Assembly (NCBI RefSeq): GCF_000526935.1 | Contig: NZ_JAHA01000004.1 | Coordinates: forward strand, 62,001 to 126,000 | DNA from: Butyrivibrio sp. FCS014 | Lineage (GTDB): Bacteria; Bacillota; Clostridia; Lachnospirales; Lachnospiraceae | Direction: 5' to 3' | Length of the DNA stretch: 64,000 bases | Shown: in pieces, positions 23,603 through 62,996 of the stretch | How positions within the stretch are numbered: the first letter of the stretch is position 1 | Layout of the letters: the number at the start of each line of letters is the position of its first letter | Translations under genes and position numbers: made by a program | Notes under the pieces: generated by a model | Database searches by the model: none | What the model was told of the DNA's origin: nothing | What the model saw: only the letters and a program-made list of their open reading frames with translations

Positions 23603-23654
23603 GAATTAAGTGTGAGTATCTAAAGCAAAGAACAAACAATAAGGCGAGTGTATC

Positions 23655-25868
23655 ATGAAATCAAAAAGGATCCATACTACTATCAGCATAGCCCTCCTTT
23701 TCCTGGTAATCTATCAGGGAGTCTTTTTGACGCCTGTTTATGCCTCGTCTGATTCTCCTGCTACAGAATTTACAGTCGGTGTGCCTGTAGACAGATGTCC
23801 TATGTTTTACATTGATAAAGACAACGGCAAGATTGCAGGAATCGGCGTTGATCTTATGGAATCCGCTGCCAAAGAAGCTGGTTTCAATGTCGCATTCAAA
23901 GCTATAAGTGAATCAAATCTTAAGGAAGCCCTTGATAGTACTGAGTACGATCTTGTTATGCCCTTTGGAAGTGCTGTTTCAAGTGCATCTGGTCAAGCGA
24001 CCATCGTATCGGACAATCTCATCCAGACCCCATTTACCCTTGTGACTACAGATAAGCACTCTATTTCTGACATAAATACCATCAGAGTAGGCATGCTAAA
24101 ATCACAGGGCGGAGTAGCAGAAACTGTAAAGCAGTTATACCCTGGAATAACGATAAACCTTTACAATTCCATGGCTGATTGCATTAAAGCGCTTAGAAAT
24201 GAAGAGGTAGATGCACTTTTACATAACTCATATGCGTGGAGCTATGTGCTTCAAAAGCCATCCTATAATGATTTTAAAGTACAGCCTTCTGCCATGTTTT
24301 CAATGGATTTTCGTGCCGGAACTCTTGAAACCCCAGAGGGAAAAAAACGAATTGAACTTCTGAACGAAGGAATTGCAGCTATTCCTGAAACCAAAAAACA
24401 GGCTATAGCCCTTGATTACACTACCAGAGATCTTTATGTATATACTTTTGAAGACTATCTCTACCAATATAAGTACTTCCTTATTATTGGGACTATCCTT
24501 TTTGCTGCTCTTGTTATAATGCTTGTCCTAAGACAGAAAGCATATTTTGAAGAGCAGAAGGAAAAGATGCGGATAATGGAGGATATCGATCCTCTCACTG
24601 GTGTGCTCAGCCACAATGGATTCCGTAAAAAAGTTGAGGAACTACTCACTAACAACCCTGATACACCGTATACGATATCCTATAACAACATAAAAGACTT
24701 TAAGTTCATCAACGACAGCTTTGGCTGGAAGGCCGGAGATGAGCTGTTAAAATTTTGGACTGAGAGAAGCCTTGAAGTACTTACCGATAAAGAAGCTATA
24801 GGAAGGTATGATGGAGATCATTTTGTTATCCTTCGATGTATTGGCGGCAATGAACAGATTCTTCAGGATGAAAAATATATTTTGACTCCTGTTCGCAATT
24901 ATTTTAGCGATCGTGGAAAAGACTTTGTTGTAAGGCTCTGTTCTGGTATTTATGTTCTTATGCCTGATGACTATAAAGACATAAACGTGGATAAGATGCT
25001 TGATTATGCCCGCATTGCAGAAAGAAAAGTCAGAGAATCCAAGAAAGAAGGATTTGAGTTTTATAACCCAAAGCAGTGGGACATGGGAAGGAAAAGTGCC
25101 GGTATCGCAAGTCGCCTTCCTGCAGCTATTGAGTCTGGGGAAATACAAGTATGGTATCAGCCACAGGTCAACTATAAGACTGGGATGATAACTGGTGCAG
25201 AGGCTCTTTGCCGCTGGAAAAGCAAGAAGGATGGAAACATTTCTCCGGGAGAATTTATTCCGGTTTTGGAAGATGCTGGGCTTATCTATGATCTTGACTG
25301 TCACGTTTGGGACACTGTGTGTAAGGATTTGAAGCGATGGAATGATCAGGGCAGACAACTGTGTGTATCAGTAAACCTATCAAGACTTGATATAGTAAAG
25401 AACCCTGATGTAGCCGACCACTTTAATACATTAAAAGAGTTCTATAACCTATTGCCTGGTCAACTTCGTATTGAGATAACGGAAAGCGCATATGTCGAAA
25501 ACTCCGATACCATCATCAAAACAACAACCAAACTTCGTGAAGCAGGCTTTGAAGTTGAAATGGACGACTTTGGAAGTGGTTACTCATCACTGAATATGTT
25601 AAAAGAAGTTATCCTTGATCGCATAAAGCTTGATCTTCGATTTATTACCGGTTCAGGTGACCAAAAGATGGGTCGGACAATACTTAGCTACATGGTCCAG
25701 ATGATCCATGCTATTGGAACTTCTATTATCGCAGAAGGTGTTGAGACACTGGAACAGGCTGATTTCCTCGGAAGTCTTGGATGTGAGGAAATGCAGGGAT
25801 ATTATTTCTACAAGCCTATGCCGGTAGATGAGTTTGAAGAATTAACGGCATATCCAACAAAGAAATAA
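23655..25868 (+). CDS. SBP3-type sensor, degenerate GGDEF and EAL protein
   Basis: A 737-residue membrane signalling protein. A signal sequence or anchor (residues 10-30) is followed by an extracellular solute-binding family 3-like domain (about 35-255), one membrane helix (about 274-292), a GGDEF domain (about 310-460) and an EAL domain (about 475-730). GGDEF is degraded to DGDHF, so c-di-GMP synthesis is unlikely. EAL keeps EALCR, VNLSR, ITES, DDFGSG, IKLD and EGVE, so phosphodiesterase activity is likely. It should link an external small molecule to c-di-GMP breakdown. It is single, with no partner gene. Confidence 0.88.
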   Translation: MKSKRIHTTISIALLFLVIYQGVFLTPVYASSDSPATEFTVGVPVDRCPMFYIDKDNGKIAGIGVDLMESAAKEAGFNVAFKAISESNLKEALDSTEYDLVMPFGSAVSSASGQATIVSDNLIQTPFTLVTTDKHSISDINTIRVGMLKSQGGVAETVKQLYPGITINLYNSMADCIKALRNEEVDALLHNSYAWSYVLQKPSYNDFKVQPSAMFSMDFRAGTLETPEGKKRIELLNEGIAAIPETKKQAIALDYTTRDLYVYTFEDYLYQYKYFLIIGTILFAALVIMLVLRQKAYFEEQKEKMRIMEDIDPLTGVLSHNGFRKKVEELLTNNPDTPYTISYNNIKDFKFINDSFGWKAGDELLKFWTERSLEVLTDKEAIGRYDGDHFVILRCIGGNEQILQDEKYILTPVRNYFSDRGKDFVVRLCSGIYVLMPDDYKDINVDKMLDYARIAERKVRESKKEGFEFYNPKQWDMGRKSAGIASRLPAAIESGEIQVWYQPQVNYKTGMITGAEALCRWKSKKDGNISPGEFIPVLEDAGLIYDLDCHVWDTVCKDLKRWNDQGRQLCVSVNLSRLDIVKNPDVADHFNTLKEFYNLLPGQLRIEITESAYVENSDTIIKTTTKLREAGFEVEMDDFGSGYSSLNMLKEVILDRIKLDLRFITGSGDQKMGRTILSYMVQMIHAIGTSIIAEGVETLEQADFLGSLGCEEMQGYYFYKPMPVDEFEELTAYPTKK

Positions 25869-47142: not shown

Positions 47143-49503
47143 TTACAGCACATCCGCGAATCCACGTTCCGGAAGTGGCTTGAAGAAGTAATATCCCTGA
47201 ATATAGTCGCAACCCGCAGCTCGCAAAAATGCGAGCTGTTCTTCTGTCTCAACACCTTCGGCTGTTACTGTTGCCCCTATGGAATGAGCCAGATTGATGG
47301 TAGAAACAATTATGGCTTCCGCCTTATCATTTATGCCGATTTTCCTGATAAATCCGATATCGAGCTTGATCACATCAAAATCAAAGGTTTCAAGCATGGA
47401 CAGGGAACTCATTCCGCTTCCGAAGTCATCCAAAAGGATCTTGATGCCTTTGTTCTTCATTTTCTCAAGGTATTCCATGGATTTGGCTTCAAGGTCGGCA
47501 TAGGCAGACTCGGTTACCTCAAACCTTATTAAAGAAGGGTCTATCTTCTTGTCTTTGATGCGCTCGAAAATACTCTCAATAAAATGCGGGTCGTAAAAGT
47601 CTACTCTTGAGAGATTTATGGCGCAGGGGACATTTCTTTTCCCTTCCCTGGTACGCTCCGCCAGAAAATCAATCCCACATCCAAGCATAAAGCTATCCAA
47701 AGATGACATCTTGCCCTCAGACTCAATAACCGGTACAAAATCGCCCGGGGATACCATTCCAAGATCTCTGTGATTCCATCTGATAAGCATCTCCGCACTG
47801 ACAACCTCACCGGTTCTGGCATCGACAATAGGCTGATAGTAAGGGTGGAATTCCCTGTCGGATATGCCTCTCTCAAAGTCTGCCAGAAAGAATCGCTGTT
47901 TCACATAGCTTTCCTTCAGGGTATCATCATAATATGCGTACAGACGGTTTCCTTTTCCGGTCCTTATTGTCTTTTCAGCCAGCTTTGCTCCAGCAACGAG
48001 ATGCGTAATTTCCTTACCTGGGCCGCTTATGGAATAAATACCGCATCTGATCTCATAATTGTATTCCTTGGATTCGATATGGAATACCTGATTGCAAACA
48101 GCCTTCATATTTTTGTCTTTTAGATTTTCATCTGCGGTTATCAACACAAAGTGGTCGCTTTCAAGTCTTCCGAGAAGTATCGGCTTTAGATATTTCTTTA
48201 AAATATCCCTGGTCTGGAATATTACCATGTCGCCGCTCTGATCTCCAAACAGCTCATTGACTACCTTAAAGCCCTTTACATTGGTATAAACCAGTGAATA
48301 GTGGTCATCCTCCTTAAGCTCGGAAATAAAGAGCCTTGCCCTCTCCATAAATCCGGTTCTTGCATACTCATCTGTCATCCAGTCATGATCGAGGGCTGTT
48401 GTAATATCAAAAAATACAATGAGAAACCAATCAGGGTATCCCGGAACCTCCCGCACTCTGACATTTTTAGCTCTGCGCCCCTTGGGTGTATCAACATGAA
48501 CCGTCCTTACATAATCTCCGTTTTCCTTCAGCTCTTTCAGAATAACAGGGATGGTTACCTGATCCAGGAAATTTTCCCGTTCCTCATCCACAACATACTG
48601 GGACATCTTAAAGCAGATATCTTTAAATCTTAATCTGCTCTCCGCAAATACTTTGCCCAGGTCACCACTTAGATAATAAACTTCGCATACTTCCGTTTTC
48701 TTATTGACAGATACAACCATGTCATAACCATCCGCAAGAAGGGTCTTTATAACAGGCTGTTCAAAATAACCCATATAAGGAACGATTGTTCCGGGCTTCA
48801 AAGGGCTCCTCTTCCCGTCTTCTATAACCTCTCCGATGCCCTTAAACTTTGTTTTTCCGTTCTTGATCTTGAAGTAGCTTCCGTCAGTAATAAGATAGAA
48901 GCGCCTTCCATAGCTGTCAGGAAGAATAACATCATTAATAAGGTCCATTCCATCAACCTTAATCTTTTTGACTTCCTCAGCATGGGGGATAATCTGAATA
49001 TTTGAAAGATCAAGTCCGGGTAAAAACCGGACGTAGTTAGGATCCGCAGCTTCACCATGAAGCTCCGGAACAAGATATACGCTATAGGCGGCATTTATGG
49101 AACCGGCTCCGAGGCCGATGATAATGCCTTTATAATCAAGAAGCGCATCTTTAAGATTTAAGCGTCTCATAAATGTAAGCTGAGTCGGCGTATGACCGCC
49201 TGCCAGATAGATCACATCAGCTTTGGAAATATATCCTGATAACGCGTCTTCCGGGTCTTCTTCCAGTATATGGACCTCATTTACCTTCAGATCTGCTTTC
49301 TCAAAAGCATTAAGCAGGGATCTTAACTGACTTTCATTTTCCTCGGTTGCTGCCGGATCACAGGGAACATAAAGAATATTGGCCGCGCCTGGCCATTCTT
49401 TTTTGAGATCCTCAAAAAAGCCATAGCACTCAGACGGTGCCTCTTTTCCATAAGCAACCGTTTCCGGAATAGAAATAAAACTACTTGTCAGATATACAAC
49501 CAT
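47143..49503 (-). CDS. S51-peptidase-like / GGDEF / EAL fusion protein
   Basis: A 786-residue cytoplasmic protein. Residues 1-225 resemble peptidase S51 (dipeptidase E/class I amidotransferase fold): AGGHTPTQL, GLGAGS and IIPH are present, but the nucleophile Ser of GxSAG is Gly132, so the domain is probably a sensor. A PAS-like linker (about 290-395) follows, then GGDEF (410-530) degraded to ESDHF, then EAL (545-780) with EML, NLSR, VTES, DDFGSG, IKLD and EGVE, likely an active c-di-GMP phosphodiesterase. ATG 49503 has AGGA upstream and matches the S51 domain start. It follows the DUF3737 gene. Confidence 0.82.
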   Translation of the reverse strand: MVVYLTSSFISIPETVAYGKEAPSECYGFFEDLKKEWPGAANILYVPCDPAATEENESQLRSLLNAFEKADLKVNEVHILEEDPEDALSGYISKADVIYLAGGHTPTQLTFMRRLNLKDALLDYKGIIIGLGAGSINAAYSVYLVPELHGEAADPNYVRFLPGLDLSNIQIIPHAEEVKKIKVDGMDLINDVILPDSYGRRFYLITDGSYFKIKNGKTKFKGIGEVIEDGKRSPLKPGTIVPYMGYFEQPVIKTLLADGYDMVVSVNKKTEVCEVYYLSGDLGKVFAESRLRFKDICFKMSQYVVDEERENFLDQVTIPVILKELKENGDYVRTVHVDTPKGRRAKNVRVREVPGYPDWFLIVFFDITTALDHDWMTDEYARTGFMERARLFISELKEDDHYSLVYTNVKGFKVVNELFGDQSGDMVIFQTRDILKKYLKPILLGRLESDHFVLITADENLKDKNMKAVCNQVFHIESKEYNYEIRCGIYSISGPGKEITHLVAGAKLAEKTIRTGKGNRLYAYYDDTLKESYVKQRFFLADFERGISDREFHPYYQPIVDARTGEVVSAEMLIRWNHRDLGMVSPGDFVPVIESEGKMSSLDSFMLGCGIDFLAERTREGKRNVPCAINLSRVDFYDPHFIESIFERIKDKKIDPSLIRFEVTESAYADLEAKSMEYLEKMKNKGIKILLDDFGSGMSSLSMLETFDFDVIKLDIGFIRKIGINDKAEAIIVSTINLAHSIGATVTAEGVETEEQLAFLRAAGCDYIQGYYFFKPLPERGFADVL

Positions 49504-49572: not shown

Positions 49573-50406
49573 TTAAATAATAACTACTTCCCCTTTTGCA
49601 TTGGGGTCATCCATAATAATCTCATTAACGGCCGGAACTGTAATCCTTCCACTAAGCGGATTTTTAATACTAATAACAGGCGTTATTATTGATGCATCCA
49701 CCTCTGACTTCTCAAAAGCAAAGTCTGCCGCTTCCATCTTGCAGTTGATCAGCTTAAGGTTCTTGCAGTAGCACAAAGGCTGAGTGCCGCTGATCACGCA
49801 GTTCTCAAAGGTTACATTCTCACAGTACCAGGCAAGATACTCGCCTTTGACAATGCTGTTTCTAACAACTACATTCTTGGCATGCCAGAAGGCATCTTTT
49901 GTGTCAAAGTTACAATTATCGAACTCAGAATCAGTTATATACTGAAAAGAATATTTACCCTTAAGCGACACATTGTCAAATCGCAATCTGTCGGATCTTA
50001 GCATAAAATACTCACTCTCTGCAGAGCTGTCCTTCATTGCAATCTCTTTTACCGACCAGCCGAATTCGGGCGATATGATATCGCATCCGCCTATCCTGAC
50101 ATCCGAGCATTCTCTAAGGGCTTTTATCCCGTGAAGCCTCGTGTCAGTGATGGTTACATTTGTGCTGTACCAGAGTGCTGCCCTGCATTTATCTGTCATC
50201 TCACTGCCGGAGATCTTTAAATTATCGTCATGCCAGAAGGGATATCTTAGGTTAAAAAAGCTGTCTCTGACTTCGACATTACGGCACTCTTTCAGTGCGC
50301 TCTCCCCATCTGCCGGCCCGTCAAATGTGCATTTTTCAACCAAAATACCGTCTCTTCCATATAGTGCTCGCTCTTCATCAAGCGTCTTCTCCTTAATCGC
50401 ATCCAT
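49573..50406 (-). CDS. DUF3737-family beta-helix protein
   Basis: A 277-residue protein of the DUF3737 family, seemingly a right-handed parallel beta-helix. Repeating units of about 20 residues are visible (for example KECRNVEVRDSFF, WYSTNVTITDTRL, WHAKNVVVRNSIV, WYCENVTFENCVI). Tryptophan and cysteine residues recur at the turns. No signal peptide. AAGGGA precedes the ATG. It is upstream of and co-oriented with the S51/GGDEF/EAL gene with a 69-bp gap. Function unknown. Confidence 0.85.
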   Translation of the reverse strand: MDAIKEKTLDEERALYGRDGILVEKCTFDGPADGESALKECRNVEVRDSFFNLRYPFWHDDNLKISGSEMTDKCRAALWYSTNVTITDTRLHGIKALRECSDVRIGGCDIISPEFGWSVKEIAMKDSSAESEYFMLRSDRLRFDNVSLKGKYSFQYITDSEFDNCNFDTKDAFWHAKNVVVRNSIVKGEYLAWYCENVTFENCVISGTQPLCYCKNLKLINCKMEAADFAFEKSEVDASIITPVISIKNPLSGRITVPAVNEIIMDDPNAKGEVVII

Positions 50407-60281: not shown

Positions 60282-62996
60282 TTATTTTGATAATCTGCGT
60301 TGTTTTCTAAGTGATCTCCTATATGAAACCAGAGCAGCAAAGCAGATAACCGCAAGAACAAGTGCTATAAATGTAATTATCGCAAACCTTATGATCAGTT
60401 TATTTATATTAATCGCCTCATATGCAATCGCATATTCTGAGAATTTGTCTGTCTTAAATGTAATGGTTGTAGGGTCATCTGTTCCAATATCATCCAGTAT
60501 ATCTACAGATCCATTATGATATCTGAGCACACAGAACTTTCTTCCTGCCTTCTGATACTCTTCAGGAATCGGAATCATAACCTCCAGCTCCGCTGCAGTA
60601 TTATTGATGATCGATGATGTTCCGTCGCTTGTCTTCATGATAAGGAAGTCGAAATAGGTGATTGCCTTATATCCAACCTTCTTCTGCATGGCCGACTTAA
60701 TGGAAGTATCAACATACTCGGAATTCTCGCTGATATCCACATTAAAGGATATTGGCGTACCGGTAAGCACAGCAAACTTCTCGTCATCAGAGAGCGTCTC
60801 AGCAACTACACGCTCAAAATTAAGCAGTGTCGGCTTGCTGTAATACAGCTCTTCCGATGTTTCCTGAGGATTTTCCGCATAAGAGTTATTGATTGTTATC
60901 TGCAATGTTCCGTCTTCAAATGCCTCTCTGAGCATAGGATATACAGCGTCATCCCTGATAAGTCTCTTAACGGTTTCCTCGTCAAGATTATGCTTGGCCA
61001 TTACGCCTGTTGTAACGATGGTGCCGTCTGTTGTCGGGCTTTCATCTGCCGGCGTATAAACATCCTCGTCATATTCCTCGCCCTCAAGACTATCCTGCTT
61101 CGGAACCTCGGCATCAATGATCTGCTGCTCGGGAACAGCACCTTCTGCAGCAGTTTTTTCATTATATTCTGTCTTCTGGACAGGCTCTGCCTTCTTGGTT
61201 GTTGCCGATTTAGCAGTCTGAGAGTTTTTAGAGGAAGGCTGCGGTGCGGGTGCAGGTTTTTTCTCAAAGCTTACTGTAATGGTATGCCCGCCGCGAATAT
61301 TGTTGAAAGTATAGCTAGATACAGCACCTATATTCTTTCCGTCAATAATAACAGCAGATATGTTATAATCAGCCTGCGGAACCATGTTGTAAGTCAGACT
61401 TGCCCCCTCAGGAACCAAATAATCGCCGCTTGGTATGATGGATCCTCCCGCATTGGTAATGCCGGAAACCAGCTTATATGTCGTGGCATTCTTCTTCTTA
61501 AAGTTTGCAACAACATTTATGTCGCTCTTAATCTCATTGATAGTATACTTGGCATCCCTCGATACAACCTGACTGTTTATGGTCCATCCTGTAAACTCAT
61601 ATCCATCATATGCCTGTGCTCTGAGTTCAACCTTAGTTCCCTTGTTATAGGTGCCTGCACCTTCGTATTTTCCTGTATCCTGAGGATAAACCGATACATT
61701 AACATTGCATTTATCCCTGCTGAATACAGCCTGGATGTTCCTGTCACTTGTAATATTATTCAGCTCCAATGAAGAAGCTTTGCTGATGGTCTTGCCATTC
61801 TCTACAAAACCTTCAAAGGAATAGTTTGCCTTTGCTTTGGCGGTAAGCGTTATCTTTCCGCCATAAGGTACGCTGGCACTGTCTGTAATGGTTCCACCGT
61901 CCCCGATGTTTACTGATGTTCTTACATAACAAGTGTTTCTTGAAAAAACAGCCTCAATATTTCTGTCTTCTTTAATATTTGAAATGGTAACCTGCCTTGC
62001 ATTTGAAATAAGAGCCTTTCCTTCATACCACCCTTCAAAATTAAAGTTATTATTGGGAGATGCGGAAATAGTACAGCTTCCGCCGTCTTTTACAGCTCCT
62101 CCGCCGGCAACAGCTCCGCCCTCAGAGGGGTTTGCGCCAACATATACATAATGATCTACTGCACTTATAGTTACGATGGCACTGTCCGTTACTGATGAAT
62201 CCTGAACAGATGTAGCTATGACCGCAAAAGAACCGGATGTTTCATCACTACTTATCTGAAGAAGTCCATCACCATTTATAGTAGTACCGGTACTCTGCTG
62301 TCCGGCTATTGACCATACAACGGCTTCATTATATCCATTACCACCCGAAACAGCAGCCTGAAATTTATAGCTCTTTCCTGTCGGAAGCGAAACTGAACCG
62401 GGAGTGATATCGACGCTTGAAACATATGGCTCATTTGCTTTAATGGTCATTGTTACAAGAACTTCCGCTCTGTGATGTCGCCTGTAATCGTTAAGTGAAA
62501 AGAACTGATACTTTGCAGTGTACTTACCTGCAGGAAGATTCGTATTGGGCTTAATTGAAAATGTCGTTGTTGCTCCGGGCTCAAGATCCCTCTCCCCTTT
62601 TACGAGAGCAACGTCAAAAGCCGTACTCTCATCAAATTCTTCCCAAGTAAGCGGTATAGTTGTAAGACCGATGTTAACTATACCTATTTGTTTATCGCTT
62701 ATGCTGGTTCCCTGATACACACTGCCAAAATCCACATTTGGTGTATAGCAGGTCAAATCATAATTATCAAACGGATCTGACTGTTCTTCCTGCTGACGCT
62801 CAGGCTCAGGTTCAGTAACCTCCTGTTCTGTAACAGGTTCCGGAACAGTTTCCTCAATAGTATTCTCCGGATAATCGCCGCCCTCTTCAGCATATACTCT
62901 GATGATCTGAACCGCTGTAATACTGGACACGACTACGCAAGCTATCAATAGCACCGCGCATATTCTGATAAACACATTCTGCAAAGATTCTTTCAT
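60282..62996 (-). CDS. Large surface protein with InlB-type repeats
   Basis: A 904-residue exported protein. A signal or anchor helix (about 10-32) is followed by a Pro/Glu-rich stalk (35-80), two immunoglobulin-like domains (about 80-185 and 190-280, the second Big-like), four divergent InlB B-repeats of about 68 residues each (about 280-545; repeated NFEGWYEG, SFEGFVENG, EFTGWTINS and RNIEAVFSR), a Thr/Ala/Glu-rich linker, a 200-residue C-terminal domain, and a membrane helix with a basic tail (YRRSLRKQRR). No LPXTG motif. It is likely an adhesin or cell-surface scaffold. Confidence 0.85.
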   Translation of the reverse strand: MKESLQNVFIRICAVLLIACVVVSSITAVQIIRVYAEEGGDYPENTIEETVPEPVTEQEVTEPEPERQQEEQSDPFDNYDLTCYTPNVDFGSVYQGTSISDKQIGIVNIGLTTIPLTWEEFDESTAFDVALVKGERDLEPGATTTFSIKPNTNLPAGKYTAKYQFFSLNDYRRHHRAEVLVTMTIKANEPYVSSVDITPGSVSLPTGKSYKFQAAVSGGNGYNEAVVWSIAGQQSTGTTINGDGLLQISSDETSGSFAVIATSVQDSSVTDSAIVTISAVDHYVYVGANPSEGGAVAGGGAVKDGGSCTISASPNNNFNFEGWYEGKALISNARQVTISNIKEDRNIEAVFSRNTCYVRTSVNIGDGGTITDSASVPYGGKITLTAKAKANYSFEGFVENGKTISKASSLELNNITSDRNIQAVFSRDKCNVNVSVYPQDTGKYEGAGTYNKGTKVELRAQAYDGYEFTGWTINSQVVSRDAKYTINEIKSDINVVANFKKKNATTYKLVSGITNAGGSIIPSGDYLVPEGASLTYNMVPQADYNISAVIIDGKNIGAVSSYTFNNIRGGHTITVSFEKKPAPAPQPSSKNSQTAKSATTKKAEPVQKTEYNEKTAAEGAVPEQQIIDAEVPKQDSLEGEEYDEDVYTPADESPTTDGTIVTTGVMAKHNLDEETVKRLIRDDAVYPMLREAFEDGTLQITINNSYAENPQETSEELYYSKPTLLNFERVVAETLSDDEKFAVLTGTPISFNVDISENSEYVDTSIKSAMQKKVGYKAITYFDFLIMKTSDGTSSIINNTAAELEVMIPIPEEYQKAGRKFCVLRYHNGSVDILDDIGTDDPTTITFKTDKFSEYAIAYEAININKLIIRFAIITFIALVLAVICFAALVSYRRSLRKQRRLSK

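Follow-up and report, generated by a model that had tools for sequence, protein, structure and literature searches.

Can a peptidase-type domain that lacks its nucleophile act as the input module of a c-di-GMP-degrading enzyme? This question is raised by a gene of Butyrivibrio sp. FCS014 located in the window, i.e. the whole 64,000-nucleotide stretch analyzed here (positions 62,001 to 126,000 of contig NZ_JAHA01000004.1). A preliminary description, made from the sequence alone, had interpreted the encoded 786 aa protein as a catalytically dead S51 peptidase domain linked through a PAS-like segment to a degenerate GGDEF domain and an apparently active EAL domain, and had proposed this as a new signalling design. 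The features are as follows, in window coordinates:

47143..49503, minus strand: whole gene, encoding S51-type, PAS-like, degenerate GGDEF and EAL parts (786 aa)
48814..49503, minus strand: S51-type (class I amidotransferase-like) domain, residues 1–230
49108..49110, minus strand: codon GGA, encoding Gly132 in the position of the nucleophile Ser
48982..48984, minus strand: His174, the expected catalytic His, retained
48883..48885, minus strand: Asp207, retained, likely the third residue of the ancestral triad (deduced role as triad acid)
48394..48813, minus strand: PAS-like segment, residues 231–370 (from the model and Foldseek)
47977..48390, minus strand: degenerate GGDEF domain, residues 372–509 (Pfam PF00990, E 9.4e-11)
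48162-48148, minus strand: ESDHF in the place of the GGDEF motif, residues 448–452
47176..47880, minus strand: EAL domain, residues 542–776, catalytic residues retained (Pfam PF00563, E 1.7e-70)
49573..50406, minus strand: upstream neighbour DUF3737 (beta-helix like), on the same strand with a gap of 69 nt

By eye, a GAGGA sequence is found at 49516-49512, ahead of the ATG of the S51-EAL gene. No membrane segment was seen in the 786 aa protein, the highest mean hydropathy over 19 residues being 1.6. The upstream DUF3737 gene showed no sign of belonging to an S51-EAL system.

Residues 1–230 were predicted with high confidence to adopt the S51 fold, with peptidase E as the best solved-structure match, and both this fold and the Pfam profile (score above the curated cut-off) place the protein in Peptidase S51, in agreement with the preliminary description. 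The Ser-His-Asp/Glu triad of an active S51 serine peptidase is nonetheless incomplete, as Gly132 occupies the nucleophile position although His174 and Asp207 are present. The loss of the nucleophile was confirmed by a profile comparison over residues 39–178, in which Gly132 paired with the Ser of the GESAG motif found in 29 further S51 proteins of the order (E 4.9e-16, probability 98.6), and by the fused relatives from the matches listed and the genome-scan loci, 128/159 of which have Ser in this column. Asp207 is likely to be the triad acid, as suggested by its alignment to an Asp in the peptidase E DR_1070 from Deinococcus and by its fit to the published Ser-His-Glu/Asp order, given in the available parts of the sources as Ser120-His157-Glu192 for PepE and Ser133-His168-Asp196 for MccG (PMC9239234), and Ser134-His170-Asp198 for Orf2 (PMC11078827).

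A PAS-like nature of the linking segment was suggested by the model of residues 225–376 (pLDDT 80.2), which matched LOV/PAS structures in Foldseek with an E-value of 3.1e-5, although with a TM score of only 0.47 and without a Pfam PAS match. In the GGDEF domain, ESDHF replaces the diguanylate cyclase motif GG(D/E)EF, the TIGR00254 score (33.4 bits) is under the cut-off of 37.4, and the motif was found in none of the 159 unique fused proteins, so that the domain was rightly called degenerate. The EAL domain scored 237.5 bits against a profile cut-off of 31.3 and contains E571, N630, E662, D692, D693, K713, E749 and Q769, corresponding to the catalytic residues of active, RocR-type enzymes. All eight are retained in 31/31 proteins lacking the S51 nucleophile Ser (Ser-less proteins), and the site is also complete in the Ser-bearing proteins (127 or 128 of 128 per residue, with one gap). 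The EAL part is predicted, as was suggested from the start, to hydrolyze c-di-GMP; because its site is intact in every Ser-less protein and the GGDEF motif is absent throughout, c-di-GMP breakdown would be the sole plausible c-di-GMP output.

A search with the full-length protein returned 284 proteins at E <= 0.001, and 104 of the best 120 carried all three Pfam labels, the architecture search for S51 with EAL thus revealing a fused family. In the nucleophile column, the 121 proteins comprising the best 120 of 284 and the query showed 95 Ser, 23 Gly and 1 Asn, the residue being absent in two. The survey was extended to 173 fused sequences, made up of library proteins >660 aa (up to P0121) and loci frames of at least 700 aa, which gave 159 unique proteins once identical or contained ones were removed; among these, drawn from the matches listed and the loci, 128 had Ser, 28 Gly, 2 Asn and 1 Cys. 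By record title, members are mainly from Butyrivibrio and Lachnospiraceae, many of them of rumen or gut origin, with occasional MAGs of Clostridiales, Clostridiaceae, Clostridium and Eubacterium. A single-assembly artefact was rejected as the origin of the fusion, since near full-length matches to the S51 and PAS parts (E <= 1e-50) occur in 33/79 genomes of the window's genus (44/79 with any match at E <= 0.001) and 55 of the 64 loci from the genome scan contain a frame of 780 aa or more. A sequencing slip was likewise rejected as the cause of the missing Ser, as Gly is also found in several genomes that are from isolates by record title, i.e. Butyrivibrio sp. AE3009 (L067), INlla16 (L073), WCD3002 (L096) and MC2013 (L104), and Lachnospiraceae bacterium P6A3 (L108), although the window protein itself has a single close copy among the matches listed, P0002 (97% identity). 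One genome holds a fused gene copy (L033/L132) that looks broken, as it stops at 662 aa within the EAL domain.

The distribution of Ser was then mapped on a tree of residues 231–786, from which the S51 columns had been excluded (quick LG+G4, with long branches warned). The Ser/non-Ser label required 15 changes on this S51-free tree, against an average of 28.6 for shuffled labels, and at least 8 of the 15 were forced by branches with SH-aLRT >= 95, which is the safer number given the quick tree and its long branches. Sister pairs with and without Ser include P0009/P0026, P0045/P0086 and L070/P0073. The changes would be mostly losses, since the 88 subfamily members that are not c-di-GMP fusions have Ser without exception (see below). 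The Ser codon is AGT or AGC in 31/36 sequences with DNA, a single step from Gly or Asn codons, so that the change is easy where tolerated. As read from these sequences, the architecture is an S51-to-GGDEF-EAL fusion with recurrent nucleophile loss, the window protein being one losing lineage. The proposal of a "dead" S51 domain as a signalling design was therefore upheld in that a sensor role is the most likely reading, but not in making deadness the rule, as most members in both surveys carry Ser.

Proteins of the same S51 subfamily without c-di-GMP domains were collected using the S51 part of P0110 as query (best 120 of 121 matches). Among the matches listed, 78 are fusions of about 635 aa with an ATP-grasp part (P0155–P0235 except P0193, P0194 and P0233), and 10 others comprise nine stand-alone S51 proteins and one kinase fusion. 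Ser at the nucleophile position is present in 78/78 ATP-grasp fusions and 10/10 others vs 152/184 EAL fusions (the 159 unique proteins and 25 further ones that were not dereplicated), giving a Fisher p of 2.6e-6 on rows that are related and not independent. His174 is retained in 182/184 EAL fusions and 88/88 other subfamily proteins, and Asp207 in 184/184 EAL fusions, 78/78 ATP-grasp fusions and 9/10 others. In an S51 tree with the 184 EAL fusions thinned to 79, the 78 ATP-grasp fusions to 14, and the 10 others, a branch with an SH-aLRT of 97 separated the EAL fusions from all other rows, in keeping with S51 having been joined to the EAL part once.

The ATP-grasp part of the representative P0162 is common to 78/78 fusions (over more than 80% of its length in 76); its nearest PDB entry is the L-amino acid ligase 4wd3 (E 5.6e-7), and its ATP-grasp Pfam score of 26.8 is just below the cut-off of 27. 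The invariant Ser together with a partner close to L-amino acid ligase suggests that these fusions are presumably enzymes, and raises the question of whether the maker and the cutter of one bond are held in one chain. A dipeptide-making partner would suit a dipeptide-cutting S51 domain, and by analogy our guess is that the ligand in the c-di-GMP branch may be dipeptide-like; this partner is the sole independent pointer towards the peptide sensing tentatively put forward in the preliminary description. Against this guess, the window's genome has no close homologue of the ATP-grasp part; in the genus it was matched in 30/79 genomes at E <= 0.001, with only G316, G429 and G418 below 1e-20. In two genomes of the genus Butyrivibrio (L146, L147), the ATP-grasp part stands alone and adjoins, by eye, a MATE-type exporter-like gene, a pair that perhaps makes and exports a dipeptide-like product. 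Other fusions were also seen: P0152 (460 aa, 7 member sequences) joins the same S51 subfamily to cytidylate kinase, and another S51 subfamily with Ser retained is joined, by eye, to methyltransferase-like parts in L038, L040 and L041 and to kinase- and acetyltransferase-like parts in L039. NCBIfam profiles on the stand-alone relatives and a PDB sequence search with one of them gave no useful match.

Constraint on the S51 domain after loss of Ser was assessed in the 31 Ser-less proteins kept for the tree, all of which have a full-length S51 domain. Asp207, Asn137 and Ser197 are retained in 31/31, His174 and Glu151 in 29/31, His104 in 27/31 (lost in 4/31) and Glu147 in 23/31 (altered in 8/31, six times to Asp). 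Among 48 unique coding sequences, seven pairs had an EAL dS < 1, one of them Ser-less. In this sole measurable Ser-less pair (L106/L108, Gly/Gly), dN/dS was 0.09 at dS 1.23 for S51 and 0.02 at dS 0.98 for EAL, which in this one pair points to purifying selection on the Ser-less S51 domain rather than free decay. In the Butyrivibrio clade with fixed topology, the S51/EAL branch-length ratio was 2.53 (bootstrap 2.14–3.06) in Ser-less lineages vs 1.79 (1.54–2.11) in Ser lineages, without a rise in the PAS/EAL ratio (1.63 vs 1.85). The higher S51/EAL ratio fits a somewhat weaker or changed constraint on S51 after Ser loss and, like the changes at His104, Glu147 and His174 in some Ser-less proteins, counts against a receptor role.

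On balance, we consider it probable that the window protein is a soluble c-di-GMP phosphodiesterase in which the nucleophile-less S51 domain binds a small peptide-like ligand uncut and signals through the PAS-like and GGDEF parts to the EAL domain; binding, ligand class, direction of control and EAL activity are all predicted. The ligand, a dipeptide or amino-acid conjugate, would enter the ancestral active site, upon which the S51 domain would close, the PAS-like link and GGDEF-EAL dimer would shift, and c-di-GMP breakdown would be altered, with a consequent change in attachment or motility. Control from S51 to EAL is suggested by a nucleophile that decays in S51 and an EAL site that never does. 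The full Ser-His-Asp set of most members would also suit the reverse, trigger-enzyme logic in the Ser-bearing proteins, with c-di-GMP bound by EAL switching the peptidase. This would leave Ser-less members, including the window protein, with a dead output, yet their EAL residues are kept in 31/31, which makes a signal from S51 to EAL most likely there; trigger-enzyme logic appears highly improbable on this evidence, although it may still hold for the Ser-bearing members. Hardly any credence can be given to continued cutting through another nucleophile or an activated water: Ser135 lies three residues past Gly132, within GLGAGS, and His174 and Asp207 remain, but position 135 is Ala in 11/31 of the Ser-less proteins, and proteins with Ser132 have Ser135 just as often (98/128), so that it is no replacement.

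That the nucleophile was lost many times and the S51 part evolves faster afterwards would be expected if S51 were only a structural or dimerization piece of the phosphodiesterase, binding no ligand and free to drift at this position. The retention of Asp207, Asn137 and, with two exceptions, His174 after loss would be unexpected for a scaffold, and these residues sit in motifs that also occur in the 88 subfamily members lacking a c-di-GMP domain, making a purely structural role rather unlikely. The same acceleration relative to EAL could mark the Ser-less domains as decaying remnants on their way to loss; given their full length in every Ser-less tree row, the low dN/dS of the single measurable pair and the S51 fold modelled with high confidence for the window protein, we regard this as improbable. 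Returning to the receptor reading, a tentative and rather doubtful extension is that the family consists of self-timing receptors, in which members with Ser destroy the peptide-like signal to which they respond, making the c-di-GMP response self-terminating, and Ser-less members respond for as long as the ligand lasts. If so, evolution would have flipped this switch at least 8 times.

The genome yielded no S51 match other than the window protein, so a second S51 enzyme is not available there. Its c-di-GMP network is large, with 30 EAL matches and 63 for GGDEF, fragments being included in these counts. Gene neighbours were rejected as a guide to the ligand, as none common to the whole fused family was found and neighbours are shared within sub-clades only. 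The window also encodes a second GGDEF-EAL protein (23643-25868, plus strand), with SBP_bac_3, GGDEF and EAL all above cut-off and a signal- or membrane-like N-terminus ahead of a family 3 solute-binding domain of the amino-acid binding type; two putative amino-acid- or peptide-related c-di-GMP inputs lie within 25 kb of each other.

Compared with Peptidase E/MEROPS S51 proteins (Salmonella PepE, 6a4r and 1fy2; MccG; Streptomyces Orf2), the window protein differs in its Gly at the nucleophile position and its fusion to PAS-like, GGDEF and EAL parts. No link to a signalling output was seen for the peptidase-inactive proteins of S51 "clade II" or, going by its title, for the pseudo-CphB entry of Pseudobacteroides cellulosolvens (PDB 7uqv). 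The S51-ATP-grasp fusions share the S51 subfamily and conserved residues, and differ by their invariant Ser and their partner. An amidotransferase-1-like domain also serves as regulator input in CdhR and GbdR, GATase-1-type AraC regulators answering to small amines according to the available part of PMC5806209; these belong to another subfamily, compared here by description, and have a DNA-binding output instead of c-di-GMP breakdown, and the window protein has no AraC DNA-binding Pfam domain. The output half is that of degenerate-GGDEF, PAS-sensor phosphodiesterases such as DibA, DosP and GepA, which were the best NCBIfam matches although far below cut-off (DibA best, with 213 bits; best PDB match 5m3c), the difference being that an S51 sensor here takes the place of known inputs such as membrane or haem sensors. 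Among the open-access papers listed, none was found to describe S51 together with GGDEF/EAL. Sensor-EAL proteins being an already known kind, the new part would be the S51 sensor and its recurrent shift from enzyme-like to nucleophile-free.

Only a minority of the inputs of c-di-GMP enzymes are known. The S51-EAL family would provide a soluble and well-folded predicted sensor of known enzyme ancestry, so that candidate ligands can be guessed from the substrates of the enzymes. With one catalytic residue lost repeatedly while the remaining site and the output site are kept, it may represent a natural experiment in the passage from enzyme to receptor, and would offer a foothold in the c-di-GMP signalling of rumen Butyrivibrio.
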